Shown here: piece by piece, positions 30,581 through 47,700 of the stretch
Position numbering within the stretch: the stretch's first letter is position 1
How the letters are laid out: every line of letters starts with the position of its first letter
Source of the DNA: Clostridia bacterium
Lineage (GTDB): Bacteria > Bacillota > Clostridia > Christensenellales > Aristaeellaceae
Reading direction: 5' to 3'
Length of the DNA: 59,622 nucleotides
NCBI GenBank assembly: GCA_017397765.1
Contig: JAFQIB010000017.1
Span: 1 to 59,622, forward strand
The notes under the pieces: model-generated
Told to the model about the DNA's origin: nothing
What the model saw: the letters and a program-made list of their open reading frames with translations, nothing else
The model's database searches: none
Position numbers and translations under genes: made by a program

Positions 30581-31690
30581 TCAGATTGCGCCCAGCAGAT
30601 AGCCCAGCAGCAGCAGCGCCGCCAGGAAGAGTACATTCATCACCGTAAACACGCCCATGAAGCTACCCTTCCTGGCTCCCTCCGCCGCGCCGTAGAGCCG
30701 GAAGGAGATCAGGCTGGCCAGCGAGGCCACCAGCGTGCCCAGGCCGCCCAGATTGACGCCCAGCATCAACGCGGAAGCATCCTGGGTGAAGGGAGACAGC
30801 AGCAGACACGCCGGCACATTGCTGATGACCTGGGAGGCCAGCAGGCTCGTCAGCAGCGGAGACGCCGCCATCAACCCCTCCAGCCAGGCGGAGATAGGCG
30901 CATAGGCCTTCACCGAAGCCACAAACACGAAGAAGCACACAAAGGTTGCCAGCAGCGTGTAGTCCACCTGCTTCAGCACCGGCCTGTCCATCAGGAACAC
31001 CGCCGCGGCCGCCGTCACAGCCAGCACCCACGCCGGGATCACCTTCGCCAGCGCCAGCAGCGCAATCACAGACAGGATGGTATACAGCGCCAGCTTGCGG
31101 ACCGGCAGCGTCTCCCCGGAGGCTGCAGCCGCCCGGATGCCATCCCCCGGGATCAGCAGACAGCACATCATCAGCAGCCCAAAGGCCAGCAGTGCATAGG
31201 GCCAGGTCAGCACCGGAAAATCCAGTGCAGTCAGCCGATTGCTGGAATACAGGTACAGATTCTGCGGGTTACCGATGGGCGTGACCATGCTGCCCAGATT
31301 GGCCGCAATGGTCTCCAGCACTACCGTCAGCGTCACATGCTTCATCGCCGCGCCCTGCATCAGCAGCAGGGTAAAGGGCACCAGCGTGATGAGCGCCACG
31401 TCATTCGTCGCGACCATCGCCAGCAGAAAACAGGCCGTCGTCAGCGCCATCGCCAGCCCCCGCAGGGTATGGATACGGCTTGTCACCGCGCCCGCCAGCT
31501 TGTCAAACGCCCCCATATGCCGGAAGCCCGCCACAATCGTCATCAGTGAGAACAGCATCAGCAGCGTGGTCAGATCGATCCCCGCCAGCGTATGCGTCCC
31601 CGGCGGCACCAGCAAAAAGGACGCCAGCGCTGCCACCAGCGCCACCGTCAGCACAACCTCATGCCTGAAATACGCCAGAACCCTCTTCAT
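30581..31690 (-). CDS. ArsB/NhaD-superfamily anion or sodium/proton permease
   Basis: The start at 31690 is MKRVLAYFRHEV. The 369-residue protein has about ten membrane segments. Key stretches typical of the ion transporter (IT) superfamily are LLMLFSLMTIVAGF, ATNDVALITLVPF, ANLGSMVTPIGNPQN and SNVPACLLLSPF. These conserved NDVA and SxxTPIGNP elements form the two-fold repeated core. The substrate could be a carboxylate, arsenite or sodium and cannot be chosen from sequence. It is monocistronic, with a terminator on the 3' side and an AATTC array on the 5' side. Confidence 0.82.
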   Translation of the reverse strand: MKRVLAYFRHEVVLTVALVAALASFLLVPPGTHTLAGIDLTTLLMLFSLMTIVAGFRHMGAFDKLAGAVTSRIHTLRGLAMALTTACFLLAMVATNDVALITLVPFTLLLMQGAAMKHVTLTVVLETIAANLGSMVTPIGNPQNLYLYSSNRLTALDFPVLTWPYALLAFGLLMMCCLLIPGDGIRAAAASGETLPVRKLALYTILSVIALLALAKVIPAWVLAVTAAAAVFLMDRPVLKQVDYTLLATFVCFFVFVASVKAYAPISAWLEGLMAASPLLTSLLASQVISNVPACLLLSPFTQDASALMLGVNLGGLGTLVASLASLISFRLYGAAEGARKGSFMGVFTVMNVLFLAALLLLGYLLGAI

Positions 31691-31707
31691 ACCCCATCTT
31701 CTTTCGT

Positions 31708-31749
31708 CCCACAAACTCAATTCCTAATTCATCATTCCTAATTCATCAT
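31708..31749. repeat. AATTCCTAATTCATC short array
   Basis: About three units of AATTCCTAATTCATC in the spacer between the SGNH hydrolase stop and the permease start. The array starts CTCAATTCC, the same as at 28283. Confidence 0.6.
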
Positions 31750-31756
31750 TGCAGAA

Positions 31757-32881
31757 TTACCACAGTAATTCTGCCCCCACCTCCGCCGCCATGCGCTCAT
31801 AGCCCTTCTTGGAGGGATGCAGATGGTCGCCGGAGTCATATTCGGGCAGGAACCAGTCCGGCCTGTCCGGATCGCGCAGCGCCGCGTCAAAGTCAATGCA
31901 GCCGTCGATCAGATCCGTCGTGCGGATGAAGTCATTGTAAGCGTGGCGCATCTCCTGACGGAAAGGCGCGTCCGTGCGCCAGCCGCCCATGGGAATCAGC
32001 GTCCCCACATAGACCTTCAGCCCCATCTCCCGTGCCTGAGCGATATAGGTTTTCAGGCCCTCGATCAGCTCCTCCACCGTCGGCAGATCGCTCATGGGGC
32101 GGAAGATGTTGACCGCCTCCCCTACCGGGTGGATGATGTCGTTGATGCCCTGCTGAATGATGACCGTATCCGCACCGTCAGTGGGCACCTCATGCGCAAA
32201 GCGATGGCAGCCCATCAGGCCGTAGCTCTCATAGGTCAGGCAGGTATACTCCCGGAGGATGCGGGTGCCGCTGGCGGCGCGGCGGATGATCGCCGTGTGG
32301 TCGTAGCCCTCGCGGGCGCAGCGCAGCTGGAGATCGTCAGGCCAGTCCTGGGCGGTGATGGAATCGCCGTAGCAGATGATGGTGCGGTTTTCCTGCGCTG
32401 TCAGGATGGACACATTGGACAGGAAGTAGTTCAGCTTCGTCGCCCGGGAGGTGTTGATATCGATATCCACCGTCTCCGTTTCGTCGCCGTTGGCATACAA
32501 TCCGCCGGACAGCTTGCCGCAGGTGAACACCACTGACCGCATAAGCGTGAAATCCTTGAGATAAAAGCTGATATACACCGTTTCGCCCGCCTGGAGGGAC
32601 GCCTCCACCGGGTCGCAGGTGACGTTCGCGCCGGCTCCGATGGTGACCGCCCGCGCCCCGCCAAAGGTCACAGGGATGAAGCCGCCGCGCACCAGCAGCG
32701 TGGTCTTGTCGATGGTGACCGGCTCCGTACCGCAGTAGTTGTCATAGGTCAGCCGCAGCGCCGCGCCGTCAAAGGGCACGCGGACAGGATAGCGGATGGT
32801 GATATTCTTCGCATAGCGCTCGGGACGGTTCTCCGCGATGGAGACCGCATTGCCCCAGATGCTGGCCCAATGGCTGGTCAT
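31757..32881 (-). CDS. SGNH/GDSL-type esterase with N-terminal beta domain
   Basis: The ATG at 32881 follows GGAGGAATGTGCC. The 374-residue protein has an N-terminal jelly-roll-like segment (about 1-160). The SGNH hydrolase follows: block I CYGDSITAQDW with the nucleophile serine, block III QQGINDI and block V DHLHPSKKGY with the catalytic Asp and His. Carbohydrate or acetyl esterases have this plan. No signal peptide is seen, so it probably acts in the cytoplasm on oligosaccharides. It is transcribed alone. Confidence 0.85.
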   Translation of the reverse strand: MTSHWASIWGNAVSIAENRPERYAKNITIRYPVRVPFDGAALRLTYDNYCGTEPVTIDKTTLLVRGGFIPVTFGGARAVTIGAGANVTCDPVEASLQAGETVYISFYLKDFTLMRSVVFTCGKLSGGLYANGDETETVDIDINTSRATKLNYFLSNVSILTAQENRTIICYGDSITAQDWPDDLQLRCAREGYDHTAIIRRAASGTRILREYTCLTYESYGLMGCHRFAHEVPTDGADTVIIQQGINDIIHPVGEAVNIFRPMSDLPTVEELIEGLKTYIAQAREMGLKVYVGTLIPMGGWRTDAPFRQEMRHAYNDFIRTTDLIDGCIDFDAALRDPDRPDWFLPEYDSGDHLHPSKKGYERMAAEVGAELLW

Positions 32882-32952
32882 GGCACATTCCTCCGTCATG
32901 ATCGTTTCCTGCTGATTATAGCACAATCCCCGCCAATTGGAAACACCAAAAA

Positions 32953-33248: not shown

Positions 33249-33935
33249 TTAAACCCCGTATTTCACCTTCACCCGCGCCAGCTTCTCCCCGAAGGGGGTG
33301 GCGAGAAGGTACAGGAATACGAAATTGCTTGCCGCGTACAGCAGCGTATGGGGCAGCGCAGCCATGACAGCGGCTCCGTACAGCGACCAGTCCAGCCCGC
33401 CGGCGTACCACAGCACATTCCACACGTCCATCATCAGGGAATAGAGCACGCCGGACAGCACGCCGTAGAGAAGCAGCAGCCAGCGGTGCGTTTTCAGCGG
33501 CTTGGCAAGTGCCCCGGCAATCAGCCCGACAAAGCCCCAGGCCAGCATCTGGAAGGGCGTCCACGGGCCCTGGCCGAAGTAGAAATTCGACAGCGCCGCC
33601 GCGAGCGCCCCCGTCAGGAAGCCTGCCTCGCCGCCCAGATACATGGCAGTGAGGATCGTCAGCGCCGTCACCGGCTTGAACAGCGGAATGAACCGCCCCA
33701 CGATGCAAAGCGCCGTCATTACCGCCACAATGACCATCCGTCGCCCGCCTGTTTTCTTTTTTTCAAAGCCGGTGAGGAAAAACAGCAGCGCCATGCAGGC
33801 CATGCCCAGGGAGATCAGCAGATGCCGCTTTCCCTCCAGGAAGGTCGCGCCAAGCAGCACCAGCAGCGGCATGGCGGCAAAGGGCAGCGCGATCCGCAGC
33901 GCCTCCCGGACGCGCCTGGAACGGATGACGATCAT
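33249..33935 (-). CDS. ECF transporter S component, probable cobalamin-type
   Basis: The start at 33935 overlaps the ATPase gene by 4 nt (ATGA). The 228-residue membrane protein has two extra hydrophobic segments at its N-terminus, then the S-component core: MTALCIVGRFIPLFKPVTAL, GGEAGFLTGALAAALSNFYFGQGPWTPFQM and AWGFVGLIAGALA. The GQGPWTPFQM block is characteristic of one S-component family. Cobalamin specificity is inferred from the riboswitch at the head of this operon. It would supply the substrate-binding subunit for the T and A subunits just upstream. Confidence 0.82.
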   Translation of the reverse strand: MIVIRSRRVREALRIALPFAAMPLLVLLGATFLEGKRHLLISLGMACMALLFFLTGFEKKKTGGRRMVIVAVMTALCIVGRFIPLFKPVTALTILTAMYLGGEAGFLTGALAAALSNFYFGQGPWTPFQMLAWGFVGLIAGALAKPLKTHRWLLLLYGVLSGVLYSLMMDVWNVLWYAGGLDWSLYGAAVMAALPHTLLYAASNFVFLYLLATPFGEKLARVKVKYGV

Positions 33936-35557
33936 GCCTCTCCCTCCCATCGCAGCAGGGCAGTAGCATCCGCCACCGTCACCGGGCCCGGCAGGAGCCC
34001 CCGGCTCATGCGGCTGACAGCAGTGGTGTAAAAGCTGTTCTCGCCAAAGAAGCTCCGGGGCGTCCCCTCGGAGACGATCTGTCCCCGGAACATCAGGCAG
34101 CAGCGGTCGGCACATGCGGCAGCAAATTCCACATCATGGGTGACGATCAGCAGCGTCACGCCCTGTGCCTTCAGCGCTCTCAGTACGCCAATCAGCCGCT
34201 GCTTGGCCGCAGCGTCCACGCCCTTGGTAGGCTCGTCCAGCAGCAGCAGGCGCGGCTTTGTCGCCAGCACCTTCGCCAGGGCAACCAGCTGCTGCTCGCC
34301 GCCAGACAGATCGTAGGGATGCTTGTCCATCAGGGGGCCAAAGTCGAAGGGCAGCATGTTCTCCGCATCGCCGCACTCCGCCAGCTCCTCCCGGACGGTA
34401 TTGCACAAAAAGACGCTCTGCACATCCTGGGGTAAAAGGGTCAGGCAGTTCCGGTAGAGGCTCTGGTTCCGGTAGCTCCTGATCGGCTTGCCGAAGACCT
34501 CCGCCTTGCCTGCATACGCCCGGTTCAGCCCGGCTGCAACGCTCAGCGTGGTGGATTTTCCAGACCCGTTGCCCCCCAGCACACAGCAGATTTCCCCTTC
34601 CCGCACGCACAGGCTCAGGCCGCGGAGCACATCCGGATCATTCCGTCCGTAGCGGAAATACACCTCCCGAAGGCGCAGGGCAGGCGGCCCCTTTTCATCC
34701 AGTGGAGCCTCTGCAGGCAGGGAAAGCCCGCTTCGTCCGCACTTTTCAATCAGCACACGCCCTTCCCGCACATCCAGCGGACATGCGCCCTGTGCCCCGA
34801 TGGCATGATAGAGCTGCGCCGCAGCGGGCAGGAAGGGCAGCAGCTCCGGCTGATCCGCCATCCGGCCCACCACCGCCCGGGGCGCGCCGCAATCCAACAC
34901 GCGCCCGCGATGCAGCACCAGCAGATGATCGCAGGCCGGAATGACCTCCTCCAGCCGATGCTCCGTCAGGATGACCGTCAGCCCCAGCTCCCGGTTGATC
35001 TTGTGTACCGTGGCGATGAATTCCGACGCAGCGATGGGATCAAGCTGGGCCGTCGGCTCATCCAGGATCAGCAGCTCCGGCTGCATGACCATCACCGCCG
35101 CCAGGTTGAGCAGCTGCTTCTGTCCGCCGGAAAGCGTCGATACCTCCCGGTCAAACCAGCTTTCCATGCCGAAATAGGCCGCCATTTCCGCCACCCGCCG
35201 GGCAATCACCGGCTGGGGCAGGCCCAGGTTTTCCAGCCCGAAGGCCAGCTCGTGCCAGACCTTGTCGGTCACCAGCTGATGCTCGGGCTTTTGCATCACA
35301 TAGCCGATGCGGGCGGCGCTCTCCCGGTCAGTAAGCGCGTCCTGGGGCATGCCGTCAAAGAGGATCTCCCCCGACCGTTCGCCCAGCGGCGCCAGCTCCC
35401 GTTTCAGCAGCCGCAGCAGGGTGGATTTTCCGCAGCCCGTCGGCCCGCAGACCGCCAGGAATTCCCCCTTCTCCACCGTCAGGTTCACGCCCTGAAGGGC
35501 AGGCCCGGTGCAGCCGGGATAGGTAAAGGTCAGATTCCTGACCGCAAGCAATGCCAT
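33932..35557 (-). CDS. ECF transporter ATPase with two fused ABC domains
   Basis: The 541-residue protein joins two ATPase domains that are usually separate EcfA and EcfA' subunits. Domain 1: Walker A GPTGCGKST (about 36-44), signature LSGGQKQ, Walker B LLILDEPTAQLD. Domain 2: Walker A GGNGSGKST, signature LSGGEQQ, Walker B LLLLDEPTKGVD. All catalytic motifs are intact. It energises uptake through EcfT. Its start overlaps the end of the EcfT gene by 28 nt. Confidence 0.93.
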   Translation of the reverse strand: MALLAVRNLTFTYPGCTGPALQGVNLTVEKGEFLAVCGPTGCGKSTLLRLLKRELAPLGERSGEILFDGMPQDALTDRESAARIGYVMQKPEHQLVTDKVWHELAFGLENLGLPQPVIARRVAEMAAYFGMESWFDREVSTLSGGQKQLLNLAAVMVMQPELLILDEPTAQLDPIAASEFIATVHKINRELGLTVILTEHRLEEVIPACDHLLVLHRGRVLDCGAPRAVVGRMADQPELLPFLPAAAQLYHAIGAQGACPLDVREGRVLIEKCGRSGLSLPAEAPLDEKGPPALRLREVYFRYGRNDPDVLRGLSLCVREGEICCVLGGNGSGKSTTLSVAAGLNRAYAGKAEVFGKPIRSYRNQSLYRNCLTLLPQDVQSVFLCNTVREELAECGDAENMLPFDFGPLMDKHPYDLSGGEQQLVALAKVLATKPRLLLLDEPTKGVDAAAKQRLIGVLRALKAQGVTLLIVTHDVEFAAACADRCCLMFRGQIVSEGTPRSFFGENSFYTTAVSRMSRGLLPGPVTVADATALLRWEGEA

Positions 35558-36408
35558 TTGAGCGCCTCCTTTCCGGTGATGAATGCGGGCAGCCAGGTCA
35601 GCAGCCCGTAGGATACAAAGCCCGCCATCGCCCGCGCCGTCACAGGCGGCAATCTGAATGCCGGGTAATAGCGCACGTCCCGGCCTGACAGACAGATGAC
35701 CGTCAGCGCCGTCAGCAACAGCGTCGCTGCCAACAGCAGCACATCACCCCGCGTCCACCGGAAGATGGCGAAGCGCGTCCGCCGCCCCGTGCCGTAGCCG
35801 CGGGCCGTCATGCTGTCGGCGGTGATGATGCCGTTCTCCAGCGTCCAGGTGACCATCACGGAGAAGACCCGCATGCCGCCGCGCATCCGGTCGATCAGGT
35901 TATCCTCCTTGTACAGCCCCAGCGCCTGCTGGCTCCGGCTGACCTGATGCGCCTGATGCCCAAACAGCGGCACATACCGCAGCGCCATGGAAAGCAGCAG
36001 CGCCAGCTTGGGCGAGAGGCTGCCGAAGATATAGAGCAGCTTATCGCTGGTCATGACCGCCGTAAAGGAACGGAACCAGTACATGACCGTGACGATCATG
36101 CCCCCGGCCGCTGCGCCGTATATCAGCGCCTCCAGCGTCACCGGGTTGTGGTTCATCACAAAGAGCACGGTCTGGCCCCGGTGGGACACCAACGGATTGA
36201 CCAGCACCATCACCGCCAACAATGCCGCCGTGTACAGATGCATTTCCCACCGGCGCATCTGCCCGGTTACCCCCAGGCTGAGCAGCGCGCCCACGAGGGA
36301 AATGCCGAGGATGACCGGGTCCATCGTGAACATGCACACGCCTGCCGCGCACAGGGAATACACTGCCACCGCCACCGGGTTGTAATCTGCGAACCGCCGC
36401 ACCCTCAT
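35530..36408 (-). CDS. ECF transporter transmembrane subunit (EcfT/CbiQ family)
   Basis: I favour the start at 36408 (MRVRRFADYNPVA) after AAAGGAGG, though the spacing is short and an ATG 24 nt upstream is possible. The 292-residue protein has five to six membrane segments and the two cytoplasmic coupling helices. The second bears the family's Ala-Arg-Gly motif (ADSMTARGYGTGRR); the first is near SRSQQALGLYKE. EcfT links the ATPases to the S component. It lies directly after the intrinsic-factor-like gene. Confidence 0.9.
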   Translation of the reverse strand: MRVRRFADYNPVAVAVYSLCAAGVCMFTMDPVILGISLVGALLSLGVTGQMRRWEMHLYTAALLAVMVLVNPLVSHRGQTVLFVMNHNPVTLEALIYGAAAGGMIVTVMYWFRSFTAVMTSDKLLYIFGSLSPKLALLLSMALRYVPLFGHQAHQVSRSQQALGLYKEDNLIDRMRGGMRVFSVMVTWTLENGIITADSMTARGYGTGRRTRFAIFRWTRGDVLLLAATLLLTALTVICLSGRDVRYYPAFRLPPVTARAMAGFVSYGLLTWLPAFITGKEALKWHCLRSGI

Positions 36409-36445
36409 CCCCTCCTTTCCGCACAACGGCATACGCAAAAGCGTG

Positions 36446-37948
36446 TCATTCGATATCCTTCCCCAGCGCCAGGGTATAGCGCCATGCCACCCGGTCGCCG
36501 TCCCGGAGGAGCACCTGATCGCAGCCCACGGAGGAGCTTTCGCCGTTCACCAGGAACACCCAGCCGGACAGATCGCCGAAGTCAAACTCATAGATGTTGC
36601 CGATTCCGTGGACATACATCAGCCCGTTCGCGCCGCTGGCTTCCAGATGGAGGCCATACGCCTGCGCAGCGTCAGTGAGGACAGTATAAACCGTATCCCC
36701 CTCCGCGATGGGCATGACTGCATCCGCAAGCAGCACGCCGTCCGCCGGAATATGCGCCGCCTGCCCTGCCACAGCATCGCTGCGGATGGAGAGCGTCACA
36801 GTGCCAATAGCATCGCGCTTTGTCACCGCGGCGGAATAGTATTCCTCTGCGGACTGAAAATCCGTCAGCAGCACGGCGGCACACAGCAGCGCAGCGAGAA
36901 TCGCCACTGCCAGAAAATTCTTCGGGTGCCGCTTGCCTGCCAGCAGCAGCGCAACGCAAGCCAGCGCCGCCATCCCACCGATGACCGCCGCCGCGACAGT
37001 CTTGTAGCTCCATTGCAGCCCCGCCGCAGCGGGCCGCGCCGGACTGTCCATCAGGAAGATGCTGCCAGCGCCCGCCTGCCAGCGCTCATAAGCCGACAGG
37101 GCCAGGAAAGCCTGGGCCGTGGCGGATTCGCTGCAGGCGCCGCCCGGCGTATGGCTAAAGGAGCCGTCCGGCAGCCGATAGGCCATGAGCGCCTCCAGCA
37201 CAGACGTCCCGGCCTTGACAAAGCGCGGATCATCCGCCGGGTCAATCCCCAGCGCACACAGGGCGATAATGACCTGCGCCGCGCTTTCCGCGCAGGTCAC
37301 GCCAAAGGAGGCAAAGCCGCCGTCCGCCAGCTGCCGGGCAGAGAGCAGAGTCAACGCGCCGTCGATGGCCGCCGCGACCTCCGATTGCTCCCGGTGAGGC
37401 GCAAGCGCCTGCAGCACCATGGCGGTTGCGTCCACATCGGAGGCGGTGCCGGTCACCGCCCAGCCGCCGTCCGCCTTGCGCAGCGCCAGCAGGGCTTCGA
37501 CCGCCGCATCGGCCGTCGTTTCGCCGCCATCGCAGCCGTTGTTGAGCAGATGCAGCCCCCAGGCCCAGCTCATCACGCCCTGCTTGCCCAGCGTATCCGC
37601 CAGGACAGAAGTGCCGTCCGCCGTTCCGCCGCCGGCTGCCAGCAGCGTCAGCGCCAGCTTCTGCCTTGTAGTGGCCGAACGCACGGTGTTGTTGTTCAGG
37701 TAGGTCAGCAGGGCCTCCCGGCAAGCGCTGAGATCGTGCTGTCCGGTCTGGCTCAGGCCGATCAGATACCACTCGCCGCCCTTGCCCATCAGCTCAGGCA
37801 GGGCTCCGGCGATCCAGTCCTGTACATCCTTCACACCGGACTGGATTGCCTTGAAGGCCAGGATTTCTTCCTTGGGCGCACCCCCCTCCGCCCCTGCCGA
37901 TGCAAACAGCAGCAGGGCCGTGAGGAGCGCCATCCATCGTCTGATCAT
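36446..37948 (-). CDS. Membrane-tethered intrinsic-factor/transcobalamin-like protein
   Basis: The 500-residue protein starts with a signal peptide (about 1-20). Residues 25-300 form an alpha/alpha toroid of the prenyltransferase/terpenoid-cyclase type, with recurring turns DGGWAV (160-165), DGGFASF (210-216) and DGSFSHT (261-267). Two membrane helices (about 317-338 and 345-362) flank a short basic loop. Residues 400-494 form a DUF4430 domain ending GWVFLVNGESSSVG and LLRDGDRVAWRYT. Animal intrinsic factor and transcobalamin pair the same two folds around B12. With the B12 riboswitch and ECF genes, a B12-capturing surface protein is likely. Both folds would face outward. Confidence 0.75.
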   Translation of the reverse strand: MIRRWMALLTALLLFASAGAEGGAPKEEILAFKAIQSGVKDVQDWIAGALPELMGKGGEWYLIGLSQTGQHDLSACREALLTYLNNNTVRSATTRQKLALTLLAAGGGTADGTSVLADTLGKQGVMSWAWGLHLLNNGCDGGETTADAAVEALLALRKADGGWAVTGTASDVDATAMVLQALAPHREQSEVAAAIDGALTLLSARQLADGGFASFGVTCAESAAQVIIALCALGIDPADDPRFVKAGTSVLEALMAYRLPDGSFSHTPGGACSESATAQAFLALSAYERWQAGAGSIFLMDSPARPAAAGLQWSYKTVAAAVIGGMAALACVALLLAGKRHPKNFLAVAILAALLCAAVLLTDFQSAEEYYSAAVTKRDAIGTVTLSIRSDAVAGQAAHIPADGVLLADAVMPIAEGDTVYTVLTDAAQAYGLHLEASGANGLMYVHGIGNIYEFDFGDLSGWVFLVNGESSSVGCDQVLLRDGDRVAWRYTLALGKDIE

Positions 37949-37951
37949 CGC

Positions 37952-38638
37952 TTACTCCGTTACATGCAGCAGACACACCGGCGGCACAAGGGTCATCTGA
38001 TCACTGACCGCGCTGATGACATATTCCCCCGCCTGCGCCATCGTCAGCATGGCCATGCCGTTTTCATCGGTGACAACGCCAGTTTTTTCGCCATTGACGG
38101 TGATCTCCGCACCGGCTGCCGGCACAGTGATAGGCATCCAGTTTTCGTCATAGTCATTGGCAGTCAGAAGCAGCTGCACCGGCGTATTCACAGCGGACGT
38201 GACCTCAGGTGCCGCAAAGAATACATAGGTATCGCTGAAATTCATCAGATCAGTGAAGGCATAAGCCTTGATGTGATCCCCCGCCTTGACCGTGTCCAGC
38301 AGACTCAGAGGTGACACATCGTTGACGTAGTAGTAGTAGCTGCCGCCGTTCTCCTCGTTCCACAGCCGGTACAGGGACAGGCCCCATTCGCTTTCCTCCG
38401 CCAGGAAGGCCGCCGCCCCTGCCGGATGCCAGGCCGCGTGGGCTTTGCTCAGCGCATCGCAGATCGTCAATGCGCCGTCCGCATCCGCATCCGTCAGCGC
38501 AACCGGCTGATACGCCAGCACCAATTCACCGCTGCCGTCGGACACGGAGACATACACCGTCTGCGGCTCCGTCTCTGCAAAGGCGCAGAGCATGGCGAGC
38601 ATCGCCAGACACACCAGGGCTGCCAGTAGCTTCTTCAT
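37952..38638 (-). CDS. Secreted DUF4430 protein, first gene of the cobalamin operon
   Basis: The start at 38638 follows AAAGGAGGACAAGAAC. The 228-residue product has a signal peptide (KKLLAALVCLAMLAMLCAFA) and a DUF4430/transcobalamin C-terminal-like domain (about 35-150: ICDALSKAHAAW, SLYRLWNEENGGSYYYYVND, VKAGDHIKAYAF). A second beta domain (about 150-225: INGEKTGVVTDENGMAML-type) follows. No membrane anchor or sorting signal is visible, so it may be released or held by the next protein. It is 3 nt from the intrinsic-factor-like gene. A role in binding cobalamin is inferred. Confidence 0.72.
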   Translation of the reverse strand: MKKLLAALVCLAMLAMLCAFAETEPQTVYVSVSDGSGELVLAYQPVALTDADADGALTICDALSKAHAAWHPAGAAAFLAEESEWGLSLYRLWNEENGGSYYYYVNDVSPLSLLDTVKAGDHIKAYAFTDLMNFSDTYVFFAAPEVTSAVNTPVQLLLTANDYDENWMPITVPAAGAEITVNGEKTGVVTDENGMAMLTMAQAGEYVISAVSDQMTLVPPVCLLHVTE

Positions 38639-38699
38639 GTTCTTGTCCTCCTTTGGACTGTCGTTTTCGTTTGCCGACACGCCCCGGCAAACTGCAACA

Positions 38700-38729
38700 A
38701 AAAGCCCCCGACGCAAGGCCGGGAGCGTA
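38700..38729 (-). terminator. Riboswitch-controlled terminator
   Basis: On the minus strand, GCTCCCG pairs with CGGGGGC (one wobble pair) and is followed by TTTTTG. It lies between the cobalamin aptamer and the first gene, so transcription termination on B12 binding is likely. Confidence 0.6.
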
Positions 38730-38824
38730 CAGCAAAACCACGCCGCGCCTTTTGCCCATGGCAAACACACGCTGCGTCATTCCGGCTGCACACTTCTCGC
38801 CAAACTGTGATGACCGCGGAGGGT

Positions 38825-39003
38825 ACGGCAGGTCTCCTGGCTTGTGACGATGTACCGATCCCGGTACAGCGGCGCGCCCTTCTCAGGCCTGTGGCCCAAT
38901 GGGTTGCCCGCGCCTTCTGATCACTGACAGTAGTGGCGGCTGCTCCGGATTCGCACCGGATTCCCTTTTGCTCTGCACGGCGATGCGTGCAAACCGTATT
39001 CCG
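38825..39003 (-). promoter_or_regulatory. Cobalamin riboswitch
   Basis: Read on the minus strand it shows the standard order: GGGAATCCGGTGCGAATCC, then the GCCGCCACTACTGTCAG core, GATCAGAAGG and the end AAGCCAGGAGACCTGCC. Adenosyl- or other cobalamin binding would reduce expression of the downstream uptake genes. The aptamer is intact as far as can be judged by eye. Confidence 0.93.
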
Positions 39004-39026
39004 CTTGGTATTCATTTGACGCCCTG

Positions 39027-39056
39027 ATTATAGCACGGCCCGGCCGGGCAGGTCAA
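39027..39056 (-). promoter_or_regulatory. Promoter of the cobalamin operon
   Basis: Minus-strand TTGACC (39056-39051), 18-bp spacer, TATAAT (39032-39027), directly upstream of the riboswitch. Confidence 0.75.
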
Positions 39057-39089: not shown

Positions 39090-40256
39090 TTACTCCATCT
39101 CCCAGGGCCGATACCAGACCCGGCTCAGCCTGCCGATGACCACGCATCGCGCCTTTTCAAAATTGTAGGCGCAGGTGGACAGCGTCACCAGGCGATCCCG
39201 GCGGCAATCAACCTCCACATGGGCGTTGAAGTCCGATTTTTCCTGCGCAGCCTCCACAAAGGCCCGCATGTCCGCTTCATCGGACAGCGCGATATCATAG
39301 CAGTGATCCCGGCTGTCCGTCACATAGCCCGCGAAGATCTCCACCAGATGGATCTCGTCCCGGCTGATCATCACCATGAACGGATGCGCCTCAAAGAAGC
39401 CGCCCGCGTCATAGTCCGTCAGGCTGTGGAACATGGAGCCGTCCCGCATATGGTGTCCGTAGATCAGCGTGTTGGGGTCCTGCAGCTCCGGCAGGTTCCG
39501 GCAGTCGACAAACAGCGTTCCCGCCGGGTTCTTTTTGCGGTTGAACAGCCGGTCCAGGTAGTAGCTGTTATCGCTGCATTGCACCACCGGGTAGTCAATG
39601 GGCATGCCGGGCGCATAAATCCAGAGCTGATAATGCGGATTGGCTTCCGCCAGCCGGTCATGATCCAGCTCTGCCAGCCAACGCTGGATAACGGCCTGGG
39701 TCACCGCCAGGCAGCGCCGGGCATCCGTGCCGCCCAGCGTTTCCAGCTGCGCCAGGTATTTCTGTCCGTACACATTGTCCCGGAAGGCCGCCACACTGTC
39801 CTCCGCCGTCCATGCCCGCGCCTGCTCCTCCGCAGCAGTCGCTTGCGTCAGGGGGGCTGCGGTCGGTTCGGGCGTGGGGGCAGGACGGAGCGCCGCAGGC
39901 TCTGCTTCCGCTGCCGGATTGCCAGGGGCAAAGGCAGCCTTCAGCCAGGGCAGCGTCCGGGCCCGGTATGCAGCGTTTTCTGTGCCGCGGGCTTCCTTCT
40001 CCGCTTCCGTGCGAAAGGTTTTCCACAGCTTGAGCTCCGCATGCTCCTCCACGCCAGCGGCAGCGAGGAACATCGCCTCCACCAGCGCATGGATCTCCTT
40101 CGAGGGCAGCGCAGCGATCCTGTCCAGCTGATCGTCCGTCAGCAGCTGCATTTCACTGTGCGGAAGCGTCAGCGCCGGATAAAACCACGCGCCCTCTCCC
40201 GCCAGCGCCGCAGCAGGCAGCAGCAGCGCCAGCAGCATTGCCATCAGCCGTTTCAT
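39090..40256 (-). CDS. Class B sortase with long N-terminal extension
   Basis: The start at 40256 (MKRLMAMLLALLLPAAALA) gives a signal peptide and overlaps the small upstream gene (ATGA). The 388-residue protein has a helical region (about 20-110) and a proline/alanine linker (PAPTPEPTAAPL). A sortase B-type domain follows, with the catalytic histidine in YGHHMRDGSMF, cysteine in VTLSTCAYNF and arginine in ARCVVIGRL. It should join sorting-signal proteins to peptidoglycan or to each other. Likely substrates are the TPDTG protein at 40485-41150 and the IPETG protein at 1-1980. It is the last gene of the surface operon. Confidence 0.88.
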   Translation of the reverse strand: MKRLMAMLLALLLPAAALAGEGAWFYPALTLPHSEMQLLTDDQLDRIAALPSKEIHALVEAMFLAAAGVEEHAELKLWKTFRTEAEKEARGTENAAYRARTLPWLKAAFAPGNPAAEAEPAALRPAPTPEPTAAPLTQATAAEEQARAWTAEDSVAAFRDNVYGQKYLAQLETLGGTDARRCLAVTQAVIQRWLAELDHDRLAEANPHYQLWIYAPGMPIDYPVVQCSDNSYYLDRLFNRKKNPAGTLFVDCRNLPELQDPNTLIYGHHMRDGSMFHSLTDYDAGGFFEAHPFMVMISRDEIHLVEIFAGYVTDSRDHCYDIALSDEADMRAFVEAAQEKSDFNAHVEVDCRRDRLVTLSTCAYNFEKARCVVIGRLSRVWYRPWEME

Positions 40257-40426
40257 GCCGTCCACCAGCCCTTCATCCAGCCGGTGTTGCGCAAGCTGTC
40301 ATAATAGGCGTCGCCCACGCTGTACTGGTATTCCCGGTACAGGATGTACCCCACCACGCATACCAGCGCCGCGATCAGCAGGATCAGCAGCAGCCGCAGC
40401 AGGCGGTACGAGTTCTGTTTCTTCAT
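40253..40426 (-). CDS. 57-residue single-pass membrane protein
   Basis: ATG at 40426 follows AAAGGAG. The product has a basic start (MKKQNSYRLLR), one membrane helix (about 8-29) and an outside tail, REYQYSVGDAYYDSLRNTGW. This outline is like the N-terminal anchor of many class B sortases, which have a membrane helix followed by a YY..LR segment. Here it is a separate gene whose stop overlaps the sortase start. It may act as a membrane partner of the sortase. Confidence 0.65.
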   Translation of the reverse strand: MKKQNSYRLLRLLLILLIAALVCVVGYILYREYQYSVGDAYYDSLRNTGWMKGWWTA

Positions 40427-40484: not shown

Positions 40485-41150
40485 TTATTTGGTCTGTGCG
40501 GCCTTCTGCCGCTTCATCTGGAACAGCACCCAGCCGATCGCCGCAGCGATCATCCCCGCGCCCAGCAGCCAGGTTCCCACCAGGAACCCGTCGCCGGTAT
40601 CGGGCGTACTGCCTTCGCCGTCCACATAGTCGTCGTAGTCGCCGTCGCGGTAGTCCACGATCTCCTCAGCCGTGAAGGTCCAGGGGACAATGCCCATGGA
40701 ACCCATGAATTCATTGCCCAGGTCGTAGGGAACCGTCAGGGTGACAATCAGATCCGTCGTGCCTGCGCCGCGGAAGGCGCCCAGCAGCACATTCTCCGTC
40801 AGCGGGCCAGTCTGGGAGGCCGCCGCGTCGAAGATTTCCTTGTCGCGGCAGACGACCTGCAGGTTCATCTGCTCCAGCAGCGCCCGGTGCTCCTCCTGGA
40901 TCGGATCAGCCCGCAGATACAGGCGGATACGGGTACCGGAGGAATTGCGCAAGGTGATGTTCTGGGTGATCACATCGCCCGGCATGACATTCTTAAACCG
41001 CTCAAACATGTCCGTGTCGGAATACTGGCTGCCCGGAATGAACACAAAGTTCTCCGCACCGCCCCGGAAGTTGACCATCGACACGGCATGGGCCGTGAGG
41101 CAGCCTGCTGCCAGCGTCAGCAGCAGGAGGATGGCAAGAATCTTCTTCAT
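40485..41150 (-). CDS. Camelysin-like surface protein with TPDTG sorting signal
   Basis: The 221-residue protein has a signal peptide (KKILAILLLLTLAAGCLTAHA) and a TasA/camelysin-like beta domain (VMPGDVITQNITLRNSS, IRLYLRADP, LIVTLTVPYDLGNEF). The spacer is acidic, and the C-terminus ends STPDTGDGF, a hydrophobic helix and KRQKAAQTK. This is the sorting signal expected for the adjacent sortase. It is probably the wall-anchored base or cap of the fibre made from the other operon products. It lies 12 nt after its related upstream gene. Confidence 0.78.
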   Translation of the reverse strand: MKKILAILLLLTLAAGCLTAHAVSMVNFRGGAENFVFIPGSQYSDTDMFERFKNVMPGDVITQNITLRNSSGTRIRLYLRADPIQEEHRALLEQMNLQVVCRDKEIFDAAASQTGPLTENVLLGAFRGAGTTDLIVTLTVPYDLGNEFMGSMGIVPWTFTAEEIVDYRDGDYDDYVDGEGSTPDTGDGFLVGTWLLGAGMIAAAIGWVLFQMKRQKAAQTK

Positions 41151-41162
41151 TGTCTCTCCTCC

Positions 41163-41702
41163 TTACTTTCTGATGGTGCCGTCGGTCGCGACATTCACGC
41201 CCCAGGCCTCCTTGACCGCAGAGGTGGGCAGATACTGGATGGCCTGATGGACGACCGTCACTTCCAGCTTCGCGTCATCCGCACGGGTGGCCTGGGTGAT
41301 CGTCTTTGCCAGCAGGTTCTCCGTGGACGTTCCCACCTCGAGCACCTGCTTGTAATAGTAGAAGCCGTCGTTGCCGATAACCCAATTGGTGGTGTTGATG
41401 TAATCATCAGGCAGCGTCCATTTCTCCACGATCTTTCCGCCCTTGACCCAGTTGCCGACCACCGCCACACGGACGTAGACGTCCATATTGTCGTCCGCCT
41501 GCTTATTCTCCACAGTAATGCTGCTTTTCTCGGAATTGTTGAAGGTCTCATTGATCTTCGTATCCACCTTCACCGCCATGAACACATTTTCCACCGGGTC
41601 TGAACTGACCTGCAGGAGCGCCGCCGTGCTGCCGACCGACATAGTCAGCAGCATGGCCGCCGCGATGAGCAGCACAAGCGTTTTACGATAGGATCTCTTC
41701 AT
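41163..41702 (-). CDS. TasA/CalY-like secreted protein (fifth paralogue)
   Basis: The 179-residue protein starts with a basic stretch and a hydrophobic signal (LVLLIAAAMLLTMSVGSTAALL). A beta-rich body follows: VENVFMAVKVDTKINETF, DVYVRVAVVGNWV, GFYYYKQVLEVG and LEVTVVHQAIQYL. These blocks match the SipW-dependent TasA/CalY group. No C-terminal anchor is present. It sits between the giant surface protein gene and the anchored camelysin-like gene, with 12- and 14-nt gaps. Confidence 0.78.
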   Translation of the reverse strand: MKRSYRKTLVLLIAAAMLLTMSVGSTAALLQVSSDPVENVFMAVKVDTKINETFNNSEKSSITVENKQADDNMDVYVRVAVVGNWVKGGKIVEKWTLPDDYINTTNWVIGNDGFYYYKQVLEVGTSTENLLAKTITQATRADDAKLEVTVVHQAIQYLPTSAVKEAWGVNVATDGTIRK

Positions 41703-41716
41703 GTCTGCTCACCTCC

Positions 41717-44700
41717 TTACTGGTTGTTCAGCTCTTTCTTGGTATTGTTGCTGAATTCGTTCTTGACGGCACTTTCGTCGTGCATCCACTTTTCAGCATT
41801 TTTCGTGTTGGCCACGGTGACCTTGTTCTGCGTCGCATCTGCATTGATGGTGCCGCTGCCGGAGCCCTCCGCAGAGGTATTGGCATACTCCCACGTCCAG
41901 CCGTTCAGCTCCGTCACCGTGTACGTTGCGCCAACGGGCAGACCGGTGATGGTCTGGGTGTAGCTGTTGTTGGCATTCAGCGCAAGCAGGTAGGTGTCCG
42001 TGCTGTTGTTGTGCGTGACATTCACCTGCACCAGCGCGCTGTCGCCGTTGGACAGGCCAGCCTTGGTGACGGTGAGCTCGCTTTCGGAGATCGTCACCAC
42101 GGTGTTGGTACAGAGCAGTTCGGACATCTTGCCGTCCTGGATGGCGATGGAGGTAGCTGCGCCGTTGGCTGTACCGCCGGTCCAGACAGGCGTATAGCCG
42201 TTGGGTTCGGTTTCCGTCACCGTTACGACGCTGCCATCTTCGCTGGTGGGCAAGCCGGTGATGATGATGTACTGATCCTTCTTCAGGGTGAAGGTATCGC
42301 CGTTGGACAGCTTGCCGCCAACGACATTGCCGTCATCATCCGTGATCGCCACATTGTCCGCTCCGTAGAGGATGTAGTCATACTCCGCATCCGCATTACC
42401 ATCCTTTGGCGGGATGGCTATGGAGAAGGTATACGATTTGGCTGCATCCGCTGCGGTATCATCAACGATCTTACGTACCTTCAGATTGCCGGTGCCCAGC
42501 TCCGGGGTGATACTCCAGATGGCGTAGAGGGTTGTGTCCTTACTGATGGTAATGCTGCCATTGGGCTGATAGCTTGTACCGGAGCCGTCCGCCTTGGTGT
42601 TCCACTCGACGAAGGTGAAGGTATAGTCCGGGTTGACGATGATGTATTCGCTGTTGTCCTCATTATTCTTGAGCATGCCGTTGATTGCGCCAACAGTGAA
42701 CTTCGCCGGAGCCGCATTTCTCTGACTATGCGGCAGACCAAGATCTTCCACTTTTTCTGTGTTGATCGTCATACCGTCAGGTAGATTGATCACATACGAA
42801 AGTGTAACAGCGTCCTTCAACACGACAGCACAGTCAATATGCCAGCCGCGGCCATAGCCGTCATCATTGTTTTCCTGACACTTGATGATATAGGGGATAA
42901 CCTCATATTTTTCAGGCTGACTACTATCAACATCGCCCTGACGCATGACACCATTTTCATCCCAGTAAGTGTAGTGTATACCCGACCTTCCTAAAAGATT
43001 CGTCAGGATCGTATTCCAGTTAATATCGTTCAAGAACGACTTCGTTAGTTTGCCAGTCGCATCATACATACCAATAGCATTGTCTCCCACAGGAGAGCTG
43101 TAAGAGAACTGTTCATGATATATGATGCTTTCTTTAATCACACCATTAGCAGTTGGACTGTATACTGAATTCCAATCTCCGATTTCCAAATCGCTCGTGA
43201 AGTAAGTGTAGTCACTATGCGCCTGTATCGACGGTTCACTGGGCAGTACGCCGTCATTACGAAGTGCGATCTGAACATTATAATTCGGATGATCCAGCTT
43301 GTCCGCTGCCGTAGGCGGCGTATAGGGCTTGACAATCTCCACAAAGATCGTCGTGACAACCGCATTGGTCGCATTGTCCTTCACGATGATCCTGGTCTTC
43401 TGACCGATCTGTGCATTTTTGTCAGCTGTGACAAGGAGCTGACCGTTTTCGATGCGGGCATTCACGATGCTTGCATCATCCGCGCGCACCGTCACATCGC
43501 CGTAGTTTGCGGAAGTCGCCGTCAGACCGGGCGCAATATTGTACTTGTAAATTGCGCCGCTGGTAAACTGATTGACGTTGGCATTATTTAGATCGACGGT
43601 GTATGTTTCGGTATAGGTGGCAGGTTCGCCTTCGGGCCTGTCAATGACATCGACATAGATCACCTTTTTGGTATTCCCATTGCTGTCCTTGACCGTCACC
43701 TTCGCAGGCTTCTGTGCCGTGTCTTCGGGCGTTGCATCTGCAGCGACGGTGATATATACCATGTTGCCGCTTACCGCTGCATCAACCACACCAGGCATGG
43801 AAGCCTGCACGGTCGAATTGTTGTCACAACCCACAGTCATCGTCGTATCAGGCGCCATCTGATAGCGGATCGCAGTGTTGTCGTTCATCTGGACATTCGT
43901 GCTGCCAACGACAATCTTGTTTTCGTCGTTTACTGCAGGAATCTGCTCGGCAATGATGTCCACATACACAATACCCTTGACAATCTTTGTATCCTTATCT
44001 CTGACCATCACCTTGGCAGGTGCCGTGGCGGTATCTGTCGGCGTTGCTGTATCGGCAGTAGTGATATAAAGCGTTTTTCCATCCGCGCCAACTACAGCAC
44101 TCACAATATCCGGCATAGAAGATACGGCTTCCAAATTGTTGCTGCCACAGGTTACGATTGCCGTTGTATCGGGTGCCATCTTATAGCGGGCAACGGAACC
44201 ATCCGGGAAATAATTGCTCGTCTGCACCGAACCTACTTCAACTTTGGGATCGTTATCGCTCTGTTCAGGAATTTTTTCAGCAATCACATCAACATAGATA
44301 ACAGCCGTGACTGCATTGGAATCCGATTTTTTCAAGGTGATCTTTGCAACATCGCCCGCCTTACCATCCGTGGCCACAGAAACTGTTGTTAACCCATTAA
44401 CAGTTACTACTGACACACTATCTCCAACCCAATTCTCCACTTTAGCGCTATTACCACTATATGCATTTAGTATAAAAGCTGCATCAGGAGCCAAGTAAAG
44501 TTGGAGATAGACTGTTGTAGCGCTCCACGGAGCACTATGCAGATTCGTAACGCCATATTCCACAGTATAGGTATTCGATGTTGGGATATTTTGAACTTTT
44601 TCTTCCTTTACGACCTCCACGTTCGCCGTTATCGTTGTCGCACCATTGTCAAGTGTCATGACAGCTGTGGCCTTGGTTCCAATTTCCGCATCCTCCGCCG

Positions 44701-47700
44701 CGGATAAAACAAAGAGATTGTTTGATTCCATCGACGCACTGAGTCCAACGACATCACTCGGAGTAAGTTGAATCGACACACACCGACTCCAGAATTCTCC
44801 AATCTTGATGGTTGCGCCAGGTGCCAGTTTAATCGTGTCACCACTCGCTACGGAATACTTCTGTTCGCCCGCCATCACGATATACTCCGAGAACCCATCC
44901 GTCTCAAAGCGGATGCTGCCGTCCGACATCAGCCGGACTTCGCCCGACATGGAGGTCATGTAATCCACGCTTCCGTCGTCCCGGGTGTGGTAAACATCCA
45001 CGATGGGGTTGGTCATGCTCAACGGATATACATTGGGAATGGCAACCTCAACAGTGGTCCCTTCCGGCACCACATATTTACTGCCATCCTCATTCAGCAG
45101 GGTGATATTGTAGCTGCGCATCAGGGGATAAATGCCCGTGATGTCAAAGTGGGTCAGGTCAATCTCCGGCATCGGCCCCGTCGCCGCCGTCACGGCCAGC
45201 GTCACGCCCTCCGGAATATCGCCGGTGACGGTGATGCCGGTGGCAGCATTCTCCACCACGGTCATCTCGCCCGCCCAGGGGCATTCCACGGCGTGCAGCG
45301 CGTCGGGCGCCAGCAGGCAGTGCTCACTGTGCTTCAGGCCATTCAGCACGCAGGTGCACAGCAGATCGGCAGAGTCCGCCTGCCAGGCTTCTGCCCAGCA
45401 CTTGAGCACATTTTCAGCCAGATTCGTGCCGTCCGCCAGACGGATGTTCCAGGGGCCGGTCATCCAGGCGTACACGGACGCCTTGTCCAGCACCTCGGTG
45501 TCCCCTTCCCAGGTATAGAAATCCCACAGGAAAGCGACGTAATCATCCAGCTCTTCGGTCTGGCTTTCGATGACATAGCCCTGGCTGCTGACCACCTGAT
45601 TGTTCAGGATCGCGTCGCAGCGGTAGGTCTTTGCCTCATAGGCCGCGGTGACCGTCAGCTCCCACGGATTGGCAGCAGGCGCAAGGATATTGCCCTCGCC
45701 GTCCACCCAGCGGAAGGTATAGCCGGTCTTGTCCGCCAGATCATTGAAGGCCTTCAGAGTCAGTTCAGTGCCGATCACACAGTCCGCCACCGTCTGGACA
45801 GGCAGCTGCCAGGCGCAGGTCGCCACATGGGCAGCGCCCGGGGCCACCGTCAGCTGTCCGCAGGAGCAGAGCAGATCATGGGCGCCATGGGCCTTGTAAG
45901 CCGCATAGTAGCTCTGATACGCCGCCGGATTTTCCGCCTGCAGCGCGGTGATATAGGCAAACCTTGCCTCATGGCTGCCAAGGCCCTTGAGATGCTCGTA
46001 GGCGCAGAGCACACCGTCGGGCAGCAATCCGGCATAAGCCTTGCAGGGATCGGCCTCCGCCCGCTCGTTGGCGCTGATCTGCGCATCGGTGCGCCAGGGG
46101 CAGTTTGCGCTGTGGGAAGCGTCCGCAGCCTTCATGCTCGTGCAGGTGCACAGCAGCGTCGGATAGACCTCCGCATGCATGGCCGCCCAGTGATCCTGTA
46201 CCAGCTCAGCCAGGCTGGTGTTGTTCACCGCAGTTTCCGCCCAGGCGCCGGTCATGACGGCATAGCGCTCCTCGCGGCTCATGTTGGCCAGCTCGGCCAC
46301 ATACTTGCACAGGTCATGCCCCACGCAGCTGTTCACATCATAGGCCGCATACAGGGGGATCTCATAGGTGTAGATGCTGCTCTTGCCCAGCTCCGCGCCC
46401 TTGGCGTCGTAGGCTGCGCAGTAGTACTCCGCACCGGAGAAGGCCAGCTCCGCCGTCAGGGACAGGCGGGCCTGTACCGCGCCGTCCACAGCGGTGTAAG
46501 CTGCCGCACCCTTTGCCCGCACGAACCACTGATAGGCGGCCGCGCCTTCGTAATTGTAGGTAAAGTTGACTTCCTCCGCCACGATGGCTTTGGCAGCGAC
46601 AATCTCCCGCACGTCCATGGAGACAGGCTTGCTGTCCACCGTCGTGACAAAGTCGGACAGGGTGGCACGGCAGAAGTAGCTCAGGCCGTCGGTCTCGCTG
46701 CCGGCGGTGACGGTCAGGGTGGTGCCGGTCTGGCCGGGCAGCAGGGTGATGGTTTCCTTCACCGCATCACCGGCAGTCTCGGTCTTCACCTGATACCACT
46801 GGTAGGCGGCTGCGCCGTACACCTCGTAGGTGAAGGTCACCTGCTCGCCGGGCAGCACGCCGTCGGCGCTGGCAGGCTGGTGAATCACAATATTGACCAC
46901 ACGGTCCTGCACGGCAAAGGCAGCATGCCAGGGGCAATCCTGGACATGGGCCGGGCCAGGAACCGTCCAGGCATGTTCGCCGCAAGCATCGCCCAGGCAG
47001 AGGAGCGCCTTGTCGCCGGCAGCGGTATGGGCGCTGTGGCAGTCGATAAACAGGGCGAAGGTCGCCGGATCGCCGGACTGCAAAGAGGTCATGAAGCGGC
47101 TGCGCGCTGCCTCATCCATCGTCAGCAGATGGGCATAGCAGCATTCCTCCGGCAGCGCATAGCGGCCGGCCGCTGCGGCACACAAAGCACAGCCCGGTTC
47201 AGCCGTTGCTGCGGGCGCTGCGGTGGGCGCAGGGGTAAAGGTGGCGGCAGGGGCCTGCGTGGGGAGCGCAGATTGATCCAGCTTGAGCAGATCGCCGCGG
47301 ATATAGCCGCGGTACTTCCCGTATTCCACGCTGTACCAGATATAGCCGTCCTGCTGCTTCTCCGCACCGGTCACGATCAGCGCCGTGCCGGACTTCTTCA
47401 CCGTAGTGACGCGCTTGCTGGCCGTCGTAGGCTCGGAGCGCATGTAGACCGCATTGGTGTTCGTCCAGGCTGCAATGCCGCCCGCCGGGATCTGGGGCAC
47501 ATCGCCGCCCTTGCCGGTCTCCACGCCGGCCCGGTCCATCAGCACGGTCAGATCGATAAACTGCTTGAATTCCTTGCCGCTGACCTGGTAGACCTCGCGG
47601 GTCACCTTGCCGTTGTCATCGGCCAGGATCAGGGAAGCATAGCCGTTGCTGACATAGATCACGACAGCAAAGAGCTTTTCGCCGTTCTTTTCGATCAGGG

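Follow-up and report, generated by a model that had tools for sequence, protein, structure and literature searches.

A cobalamin-riboswitch operon of Clostridia that pairs a CbrT-like ECF transporter with a probable membrane-tethered B12 trap

Proteins that join an alpha/alpha toroid to an SLBB domain were described in Gram-positive bacteria by Burroughs, Balaji, Iyer and Aravind in 2007 (PMC1796856). They placed these proteins in operons with CbiO/CbiQ-like genes, often beside a second SLBB protein, predicted that they scavenge vitamin B12, and proposed that the transcobalamin-type proteins of animals arose by transfer from Gram-positives (PMC1796856). Here we analyze a locus of this kind in a Clostridia bacterium of the gut, a member of the Aristaeellaceae (GenBank assembly GCA_017397765.1; 3.13 Mb, 89% complete). 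The window, that is, the whole stretch of DNA analyzed, is positions 1 to 59,622 of contig JAFQIB010000017.1 and carries on its minus strand a cobalamin riboswitch followed by five genes, P0001 to P0005. Import of B12 or another cobamide by this operon is well supported. We propose more specifically, with a probability of about 0.7, that a CbrT-like energy-coupling factor (ECF) transporter is served here by P0002, a toroid–DUF4430 protein acting as a membrane-tethered capture device.

The central idea is therefore already published as a prediction, and P0002 agrees with the 2007 account in its toroid plus SLBB/DUF4430 domains, its signal sequence, its CbiO/CbiQ operon and its predicted role in B12 scavenging (PMC1796856). 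It also fits the transcobalamin-like clade of SLBB proteins, with a DUF4430 domain at 55.9 bits, a toroid found by cyclase-type profile matches, a hydrophobic N-terminus and the CbiO/CbiQ operon; a trait of that clade is a conserved ligand-contacting aromatic residue within the hairpin insert before strand 3 (PMC1796856). The available passages of that paper do not mention the riboswitch, the CbrT-like S component, the transmembrane hairpin, the gene fusion or the exchange with BtuFCD that we describe below. The ECF-CbrT transporter of Lactobacillus delbrueckii has the same CbrT-like S component, EcfT and two EcfA ATPases; there, however, one ECF module serves several S components, whereas the present operon has its own T component, a fused A-A protein and a toroid (PMC5997447). 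The L. delbrueckii gene cluster reads nrdJ-cbrS-cbrT-pduO, with cbrS between nrdJ and cbrT (PMC5997447), and because a DUF4430 gene adjoins rtpR in L. rhamnosus (PMC9963975), CbrS may by analogy be a DUF4430 protein. B12 is likewise caught at the cell surface beside a transporter by BtuG and BtuH of Bacteroides (PMC6143338, PMC8941943). Those are surface proteins of Gram-negative bacteria. We take them not to be of the toroid–DUF4430 type.

The first-pass annotation, made from the sequence alone, had called the system little-described. That was overstated, since toroid–SLBB proteins, their CbiO/CbiQ operons and B12 scavenging were in print in 2007 (PMC1796856), and a Lactobacillus protein already carries the label "Additional lipoprotein component of putative cobalamin ECF transporter" (PMC9963975). 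In the open-access literature, subscription papers and preprints lying outside the search, we found no experimental study of a bacterial toroid–DUF4430 B12 binder and no description of the transmembrane-hairpin form or of the exchange with BtuFCD. Three things appear to be new: the membrane-hairpin fusion together with its origin, the evidence on substrate from the CbrT-type S component and the riboswitch, and the exchange with BtuFCD in close relatives. The features of the locus are as follows, in window coordinates.

39027..39056, minus strand: promoter-like site TTGACC-18-TATAAT, matching 11 of 12 consensus positions (0.1 such sites expected, mean over shuffles of the 521-base region)
38810..39013, minus strand: cobalamin riboswitch aptamer, Rfam RF00174, 96.7 bits, E 6.9e-23, full length (model positions 1-189 of 189)
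38704..38726, minus strand: terminator-like hairpin between aptamer and P0001, probable expression platform; nine pairs, seven of them G-C, and a T-rich tail
37952..38638, minus strand: P0001, 228 amino acids; signal peptide, DUF4430-like N half, weakly Ig/CarboxypepD_reg-like C half
36446..37948, minus strand: P0002, 500 amino acids; signal peptide, toroid, transmembrane hairpin, DUF4430
37049..37867, minus strand: alpha/alpha-toroid-like domain of P0002, residues 28-300; profile A7 finds squalene-cyclase-type chains, best 7xq4_A at E 6.7e-13
36848..37006, minus strand: transmembrane hairpin of P0002, about residues 315-367, with segments at about 315-340 and 341-367 by hydropathy
36473..36700, minus strand: DUF4430 domain of P0002 (SLBB / transcobalamin C-terminal type), residues 417-492 by Pfam; PF14478, 55.9 bits, E 6.1e-15
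35530..36408, minus strand: P0003, EcfT (CbiQ family); PF02361, 34.7 bits against a cut-off of 25
33932..35557, minus strand: P0004, fused EcfA-EcfA ATPases; TIGR04520, 333 bits against 315
33249..33935, minus strand: P0005, CbrT-like S component; PF07155, 48.3 against 26.7 bits, and PF12822, 33.3 against 30.7 bits

The riboswitch is the single RF00174 match found in the whole genome, exceeds the gathering score of 31.5 bits, and heads the five genes, which lie 3' of it and, for the chosen starts, are separated or overlap by no more than a few dozen bases (those of P0001, P0003 and P0005 are internal ATG codons, their open reading frames extending further upstream). Promoter-like site, riboswitch and terminator-like hairpin follow one another in the usual arrangement of a transcriptional off-switch, which is the direction of regulation we would predict. 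Terminator-like sites, overlapping or other, number five in the regulatory region against 0.5 expected. The minimum-free-energy fold of 38636-38822, a stretch without the aptamer core, retains the inner five of the nine hairpin pairs. EcfT, the two EcfA domains and the S component all exceed curated cut-offs, and a search of the PDB with P0005 returned one significant match, 6fnp_A (E 4.5e-11), which we take to be the CbrT structure of Santos et al. 2018. Given the sequence, the riboswitch and the exchange with BtuFCD-like genes, the ECF complex that contains P0005 would transport cobalamin.

P0002 is the only protein in the genome in which we found a match to PF14478, and all 80 rows of its family alignment A3 match that model at E<=1. 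(A3 comprises P0002, L031, L032 and 77 of the 80 loci introduced below, with L059, L114 and L124 left out.) The conserved segment that contains DUF4430 begins near residue 382, ahead of the Pfam model at 417. The toroid matches Pfam toroid families of squalene-hopene cyclases and prenyltransferases below their cut-offs; against the PDB, its profile finds terpene cyclases and macroglobulin-type proteins, transcobalamin not being among them, and the DUF4430 profile finds nothing up to E 10. Four toroid residues, D173, M177, G216 and Q225, do not vary across the 80 rows. Both transmembrane segments are strongly hydrophobic in every row, and the loop between them carries a net charge of +2 to +5, also in 80 of 80; the stretch after the second segment is neutral or negative in 75. 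By the positive-inside rule this loop should lie in the cytoplasm, which would place toroid and DUF4430 both outside the cell. From the second segment to the conserved DUF4430 segment there are only 6–16 residues; from the toroid to the first segment there are 19–89 (median 50). The first-pass annotation had read the locus as a cobalamin riboswitch leading into a complete ECF transporter and a protein of toroid, two membrane helices and DUF4430 with both folds facing outward, and each of these points is borne out by the model scores, the toroid profile, the hydropathy and the loop charge just given.

The animal carriers transcobalamin, intrinsic factor and haptocorrin share with P0002 the order of parts, toroid (by sequence profile) and then DUF4430, as well as the PF14478 model, which human transcobalamin passes. 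They differ in being soluble, with a plain linker (PMC11107200) at the place where P0002 has a transmembrane hairpin in 80 of 80 rows, and in having a toroid of family PF01122, which P0002 does not match.

How this hairpin may have arisen is suggested by more distant relatives. In two order-level relatives, L044 and L045, the toroid gene ends in a C-terminal transmembrane segment with a basic tail, and the next gene encodes a DUF4430 protein that starts with a transmembrane segment. In L043 and L045, the alignment of the DUF4430 protein to P0002 begins at its residue 3 and at P0002 residue 343, within the loop between the two transmembrane segments of P0002; in L044 it begins at residue 7 and at P0002 residue 350. 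Because separate DUF4430 proteins align from this loop onward, the P0002 gene seems to have arisen when two neighboring genes for membrane-anchored proteins fused at their cytoplasmic ends. At class level we chose 15 loci by hand from the match list, which makes them a biased sample: toroid and DUF4430 are neighboring genes in 14 of them and fused in L199. In those 14 the toroid protein shows no C-terminal transmembrane segment, and the sequence fetched for 11 of them also encodes EcfT and EcfA-A. The commoner form in this hand-chosen sample is thus an unanchored toroid next to a DUF4430 protein that is anchored.

Other arrangements of the same parts occur. In L042:4982-6398 (G037, same family), toroid and transmembrane-DUF4430 are two overlapping open reading frames of 304 and 172 amino acids, with no transmembrane segment detected at the end of the toroid frame, and EcfA-A and S read as a single 798-amino-acid frame. 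L041:7431-14360 encodes a 2309-amino-acid protein with DUF4430 near its start, a toroid near its end and a C-terminal transmembrane segment, in an ECF operon headed by a cobalamin riboswitch. An extra large open reading frame with both toroid-like and DUF4430-like stretches lies upstream of the toroid gene in L186, L188 and L197. Beside the toroid and DUF4430 genes of L185, L186, L188, L189, L191-L193, L195, L197 and L198 are EcfA-A-matching frames of about 790–980 amino acids, long enough for a fused S component. A mobilizable plasmid of Lentilactobacillus kefiri (L202, NZ_CP029972.1) carries a P0005-like S component, EcfT and an ATPase; a few kilobases off, its other strand encodes a DUF4430 protein.

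P0001, the first surface protein, had been annotated as a DUF4430 protein. Pfam gives no DUF4430 match to it at E<=1, and the list of 25 families for its 71-member family does not include DUF4430 either; what stands is a profile-to-profile link between its N half and the P0002 DUF4430 domain (probability 76% and E 2.2e-5 in one hhalign comparison). A hydrophobic C-terminal tail is present in 53 of the 71 aligned members, and the copy in our window has no C-terminal anchor. (This alignment, A4, holds P0001 and 70 of its 75 relatives; L057, L059, L092, L101 and L127 were left out.) For P0001 itself, a role as another surface binder or as a partner in hand-over is probable.

The unit and its riboswitch recur together. 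Among 100 related genomes, our own counted, 20 have a P0002 match: 11 with toroid and DUF4430 in one open reading frame (in G069 and G030 as two pieces of it), five with the two as separate frames (G037, G066, G078, G089, G098) and four in which the DUF4430 part alone matched (G073, G079, G085, G091). RF00174 exceeds its cut-off at 16 of these 20 loci and falls below it in G047 (27.2 bits); no riboswitch was found at the P0002 locus in G037, G054 or G078. With alignment A1 as query, a survey that took one genome from each species yielded at least 583 related stretches, and the best 80 of these are our 80 loci, at least six of which (L051, L052, L055, L085, L086, L125) appear to share genomes with the set L031-L049. 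On the same strand and within 7 kb, P0001 is present in 75 of the 80, EcfT in 69, EcfA-A in 69, S in 62, and all four in 60; many of the gaps are contig ends.

A hand-written regular expression for the riboswitch was too strict (one match in 80 loci) and gave way to model R1, for which the window and related loci supplied 12 riboswitches. R1 matches 58 of the 80 loci, 55 of them within 1.5 kb upstream of P0001; four of the 58 (L051, L052, L055, L086) lie in genomes whose riboswitch is part of R1. Rfam was run on 28 loci, namely the 22 without an R1 match and six with short matches, and all six of the latter exceed its cut-off. The order can be permuted to riboswitch-T-AA-S-P1-P2 (L072, L094), two riboswitches can stand one ahead of each operon half (L113, L119), and in the distant loci L045 and L047 the riboswitch lies several kilobases upstream with other genes between. 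Linkage of the riboswitch to these genes in relatives, set as a test beforehand, held with these 16 of 20 loci over the Rfam cut-off, one below it, and 58 of 80 by R1. The arrangement P0001–P0005 is more than chance, because it recurs in dozens of genomes.

A different transporter takes the place of this unit in close relatives. The riboswitch is matched in 76 of the 100 genomes. Among the 60 of the same family, 11 have P0002 and 49 do not, and 41 of those 49 have the riboswitch. We classified the downstream genes by tblastn at one riboswitch locus per genome in 38 of the 41 (G010, G026 and G038 left out): 33 are BtuF- and/or BtuC/D-like, four are CobT-U-S salvage genes and one is neither, and none of P0001, P0002, P0003 and P0005 was found on the riboswitch strand at E<=1e-8. 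In the salvage genomes G001, G006 and G011, a close BtuC is preceded on its own strand, at a distance of about 1–1.4 kb, by a second riboswitch. By Pfam, the BtuF, BtuC and BtuD probes are Peripla_BP_2, FecCD and ABC_tran proteins; the NCBIfam models for BtuF, BtuC and BtuD match them below cut-offs.

A close BtuC, at a threshold of at least 52% identity fixed after the list had been seen, occurs in 0 of 11 P0002-positive and 30 of 49 P0002-negative genomes of the family (Fisher p 3.2e-4), in 0 of 5 and 10 of 13 within the genus (p 0.0065), and in 0 of 10 and 26 of 37 at a completeness of at least 84% (p 6.8e-5); the genomes are related and not independent, which makes all these p values too small. 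BtuFCD is headed by the same riboswitch family and probably does the same job, whereas its Peripla_BP_2 binding protein and FecCD permease are of unrelated architecture.

The gene content of our own genome fits B12 import by this operon. Relatives' close BtuC finds no match in it at E<=0.001, and neither CbiD nor CobS was found in the 89%-complete assembly; yet four open reading frames contain a B12-binding domain, one of them MetH-like (406 bits, below the model cut-off, for a 617-amino-acid part). The simplest reading is that P0001–P0005 form the genome's own B12 importer. As a test of auxotrophy, CbiD was uninformative across relatives (13 of 100, and 3 of the 20 with a P0002 match). We also considered whether the operon might itself belong to BtuFCD and rejected this: no FecCD permease or Peripla_BP_2 binding protein was found among P0001–P0005, and no match to a relative's BtuC in the genome at E<=0.001.

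ECF transporters are, to our knowledge, usually said to need no extracellular binding protein. In the mechanism we propose, B12 would switch the operon off through the riboswitch, and the ECF complex with its CbrT-like S component would move the vitamin across the membrane. The two-helix hairpin of P0002 would keep toroid and DUF4430 outside the cell, DUF4430 on a short stalk and the toroid on a longer, variable linker. B12, the presumed ligand, would dock first on DUF4430, as in transcobalamin; the toroid would then close over it to form a sandwich pocket, and the bound vitamin would be released to the adjoining S component. A short-stalked DUF4430 and a longer-tethered toroid would fit the transcobalamin order of events: in the rat protein the beta-domain binds cobalamin first and the alpha-domain then closes, and isolated domains can bind (PMC11107200). 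Ligand release from transcobalamin requires proteolysis (PMC11107200). A bolder version, which we hold tentatively and at somewhat less than even odds, is that P0002 is a "split transcobalamin" threaded through the membrane, giving the ECF transporter its own tethered two-piece B12 trap. As nothing but the hairpin, next to the ECF complex, joins the halves, the lid might open in step with the transport cycle.

A number of observations pull against capture of B12 by P0002, beginning with its kinship to transcobalamin. The first-pass annotation had held that P0002 combines the same two folds as the animal B12 carriers. For DUF4430 this stands, in that the human transcobalamin C-domain and P0002 pass the same model (25.0 and 55.9 bits against a cut-off of 23.8, human transcobalamin being barely over), and Y445 and W463, which are the same in all 80 rows of A3, fall on a Tyr and a Trp of transcobalamin in a weak alignment; direct profile comparison of the two is weak as well (hhalign probability 29%). 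For the toroid the kinship is unconvincing: comparison with transcobalamin is near noise (hhalign E 0.0099 for one comparison, probability 4%), PF01122 gives P0002 no match at E<=1 while human transcobalamin scores 381 bits, and the nearest sequence relatives are terpene-cyclase-type toroids. A signal-peptide-like N-terminus is found in 73 of the 80 rows and so is not universal. None of the 22 loci without an R1 match exceeds the Rfam cut-off, and some of them, not all, are cut near the gene. Of the stretches fetched for the 15 class-search loci, only four (L187, L190, L192, L193) contain a cobalamin riboswitch that exceeds the cut-off, and in those of L187 and L190 no ECF genes were found. 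L097 and the G054 genome (L037/L085) have P0002 relatives of full length but neither P0001 nor ECF genes in the vicinity, L085 and L097 lacking all four partners despite ample sequence, and G054 carries CbiD. Among the 33 BtuFCD-like cases, five are BtuF alone, and some genes have only about 30% identity or lie kilobases downstream. Counting any BtuC match (E<=0.001) leaves a weaker contrast, with 6 of 11 P0002-positive and 43 of 49 P0002-negative genomes (p 0.022).

The ECF complex might import B12 by itself, with P0001 and P0002 as accessories for docking, stability or display that do not enclose the vitamin. Transport was reportedly shown by Santos et al. in 2018 with purified ECF-CbrT alone, the P0002 toroid has no convincing sequence kinship to transcobalamin, and at L046, L047 and L048 DUF4430 and ECF genes occur with no toroid detected by the toroid profile. 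ECF-CbrT is known to transport both B12 and cobinamide (PMC5997447). We nonetheless consider this explanation unlikely: P0001 and P0002 travel with the ECF genes (P0001 at 75 and EcfT at 69 of the 80 loci), toroid and DUF4430 still adjoin in order- and class-level loci (14 of 15, the 15th fused, all picked from matches), and the four invariant toroid residues speak against a mere accessory role. The cargo is a separate matter. Incomplete corrinoids such as cobinamide, or cobamides other than B12, might be the main substrate, as the BtuFCD and CbrT families have both been shown to import B12 and cobinamide (PMC6593275; PMC5997447). Here the absence of CobS and CbiD from the search results suggests that imported cobinamide could perhaps not be completed, an argument weakened by the 89% completeness of the assembly and by L. 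delbrueckii, which takes up cobinamide via CbrT though homologues of CobS, CobU and CobT were not found there (PMC5997447). On balance we regard such a main cargo as distinctly improbable.

Heme or another tetrapyrrole might be the substrate if a plasmid operon is a guide. The 592-kb plasmid record CP117684.1 of Latilactobacillus curvatus holds an operon homologous to both halves of P0002 and to P0003–P0005, with P0002 split in two genes: an LPXTG-anchored toroid protein, a DUF4430 protein, EcfT, EcfA-A and S. No Rfam cobalamin riboswitch match was found in it, and we infer that it may be the counterpart of the Lactobacillus sakei genes lsa1836-1840. That five-gene ECF-like operon was reportedly found by Verplaetse et al. 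to be needed for heme uptake, which would count against B12 if the two correspond. The L. sakei heme paper is cited in PMC7299338. On the other side, a cobalamin riboswitch heads our operon and BtuFCD-like genes replace it in relatives; CbrT is the sole PDB match of the L. curvatus S component at E<=0.1 (E 3.3e-14); and our genome holds a MetH-like protein, while a search for two heme families, cytochrome bd oxidase and heme catalase, found neither at E<=0.001. Heme is therefore, in our judgment, very unlikely, a shade more so than cobinamide. To cobalt we give almost no weight. EcfT does match PF02361, a family named cobalt transport protein, but the S component is CbrT-like with no CbiM family match at E<=1, a metal ion would not be expected to need large surface domains, and with no CbiD found, cobalt import for B12 synthesis is unlikely; we rejected cobalt transport on these grounds. 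B12 import with capture by P0002 remains our preferred reading, and the function guessed in the first-pass annotation, capture outside the cell and hand-over to the S component, is probably right.

The surroundings of the operon include other surface proteins. Immediately 5' of the riboswitch, and encoded on its strand, is a sortase-family protein (PF04203; window 39093-40265, minus strand), beside which lie two small secreted-looking proteins (40488-41150 and 41166-41702) with no Pfam match at E<=0.001. Near the sortase gene is a 2168-amino-acid surface-type protein with SH3, DUF7601 and DUF5979 domains (41720-48223, minus strand). Downstream of the operon are a CitMHS-type transporter and a GDSL lipase/acylhydrolase (30584-31720 and 31760-32896, minus strand).

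P0002 is widespread in Clostridia assemblies, with at least 583 matching stretches, and among the matches listed most come from animal guts; 116 of 291 genomes of the class have an at least partial match. The locus gives concrete form to the idea that an ECF transporter could work with a surface trap and recover the ligand from it. If the model is true, the tethered trap would solve the release problem that animal binders meet by being digested. With small, expressible domains at hand, the 2007 proposal that animal B12 carriers are of bacterial origin becomes directly testable.

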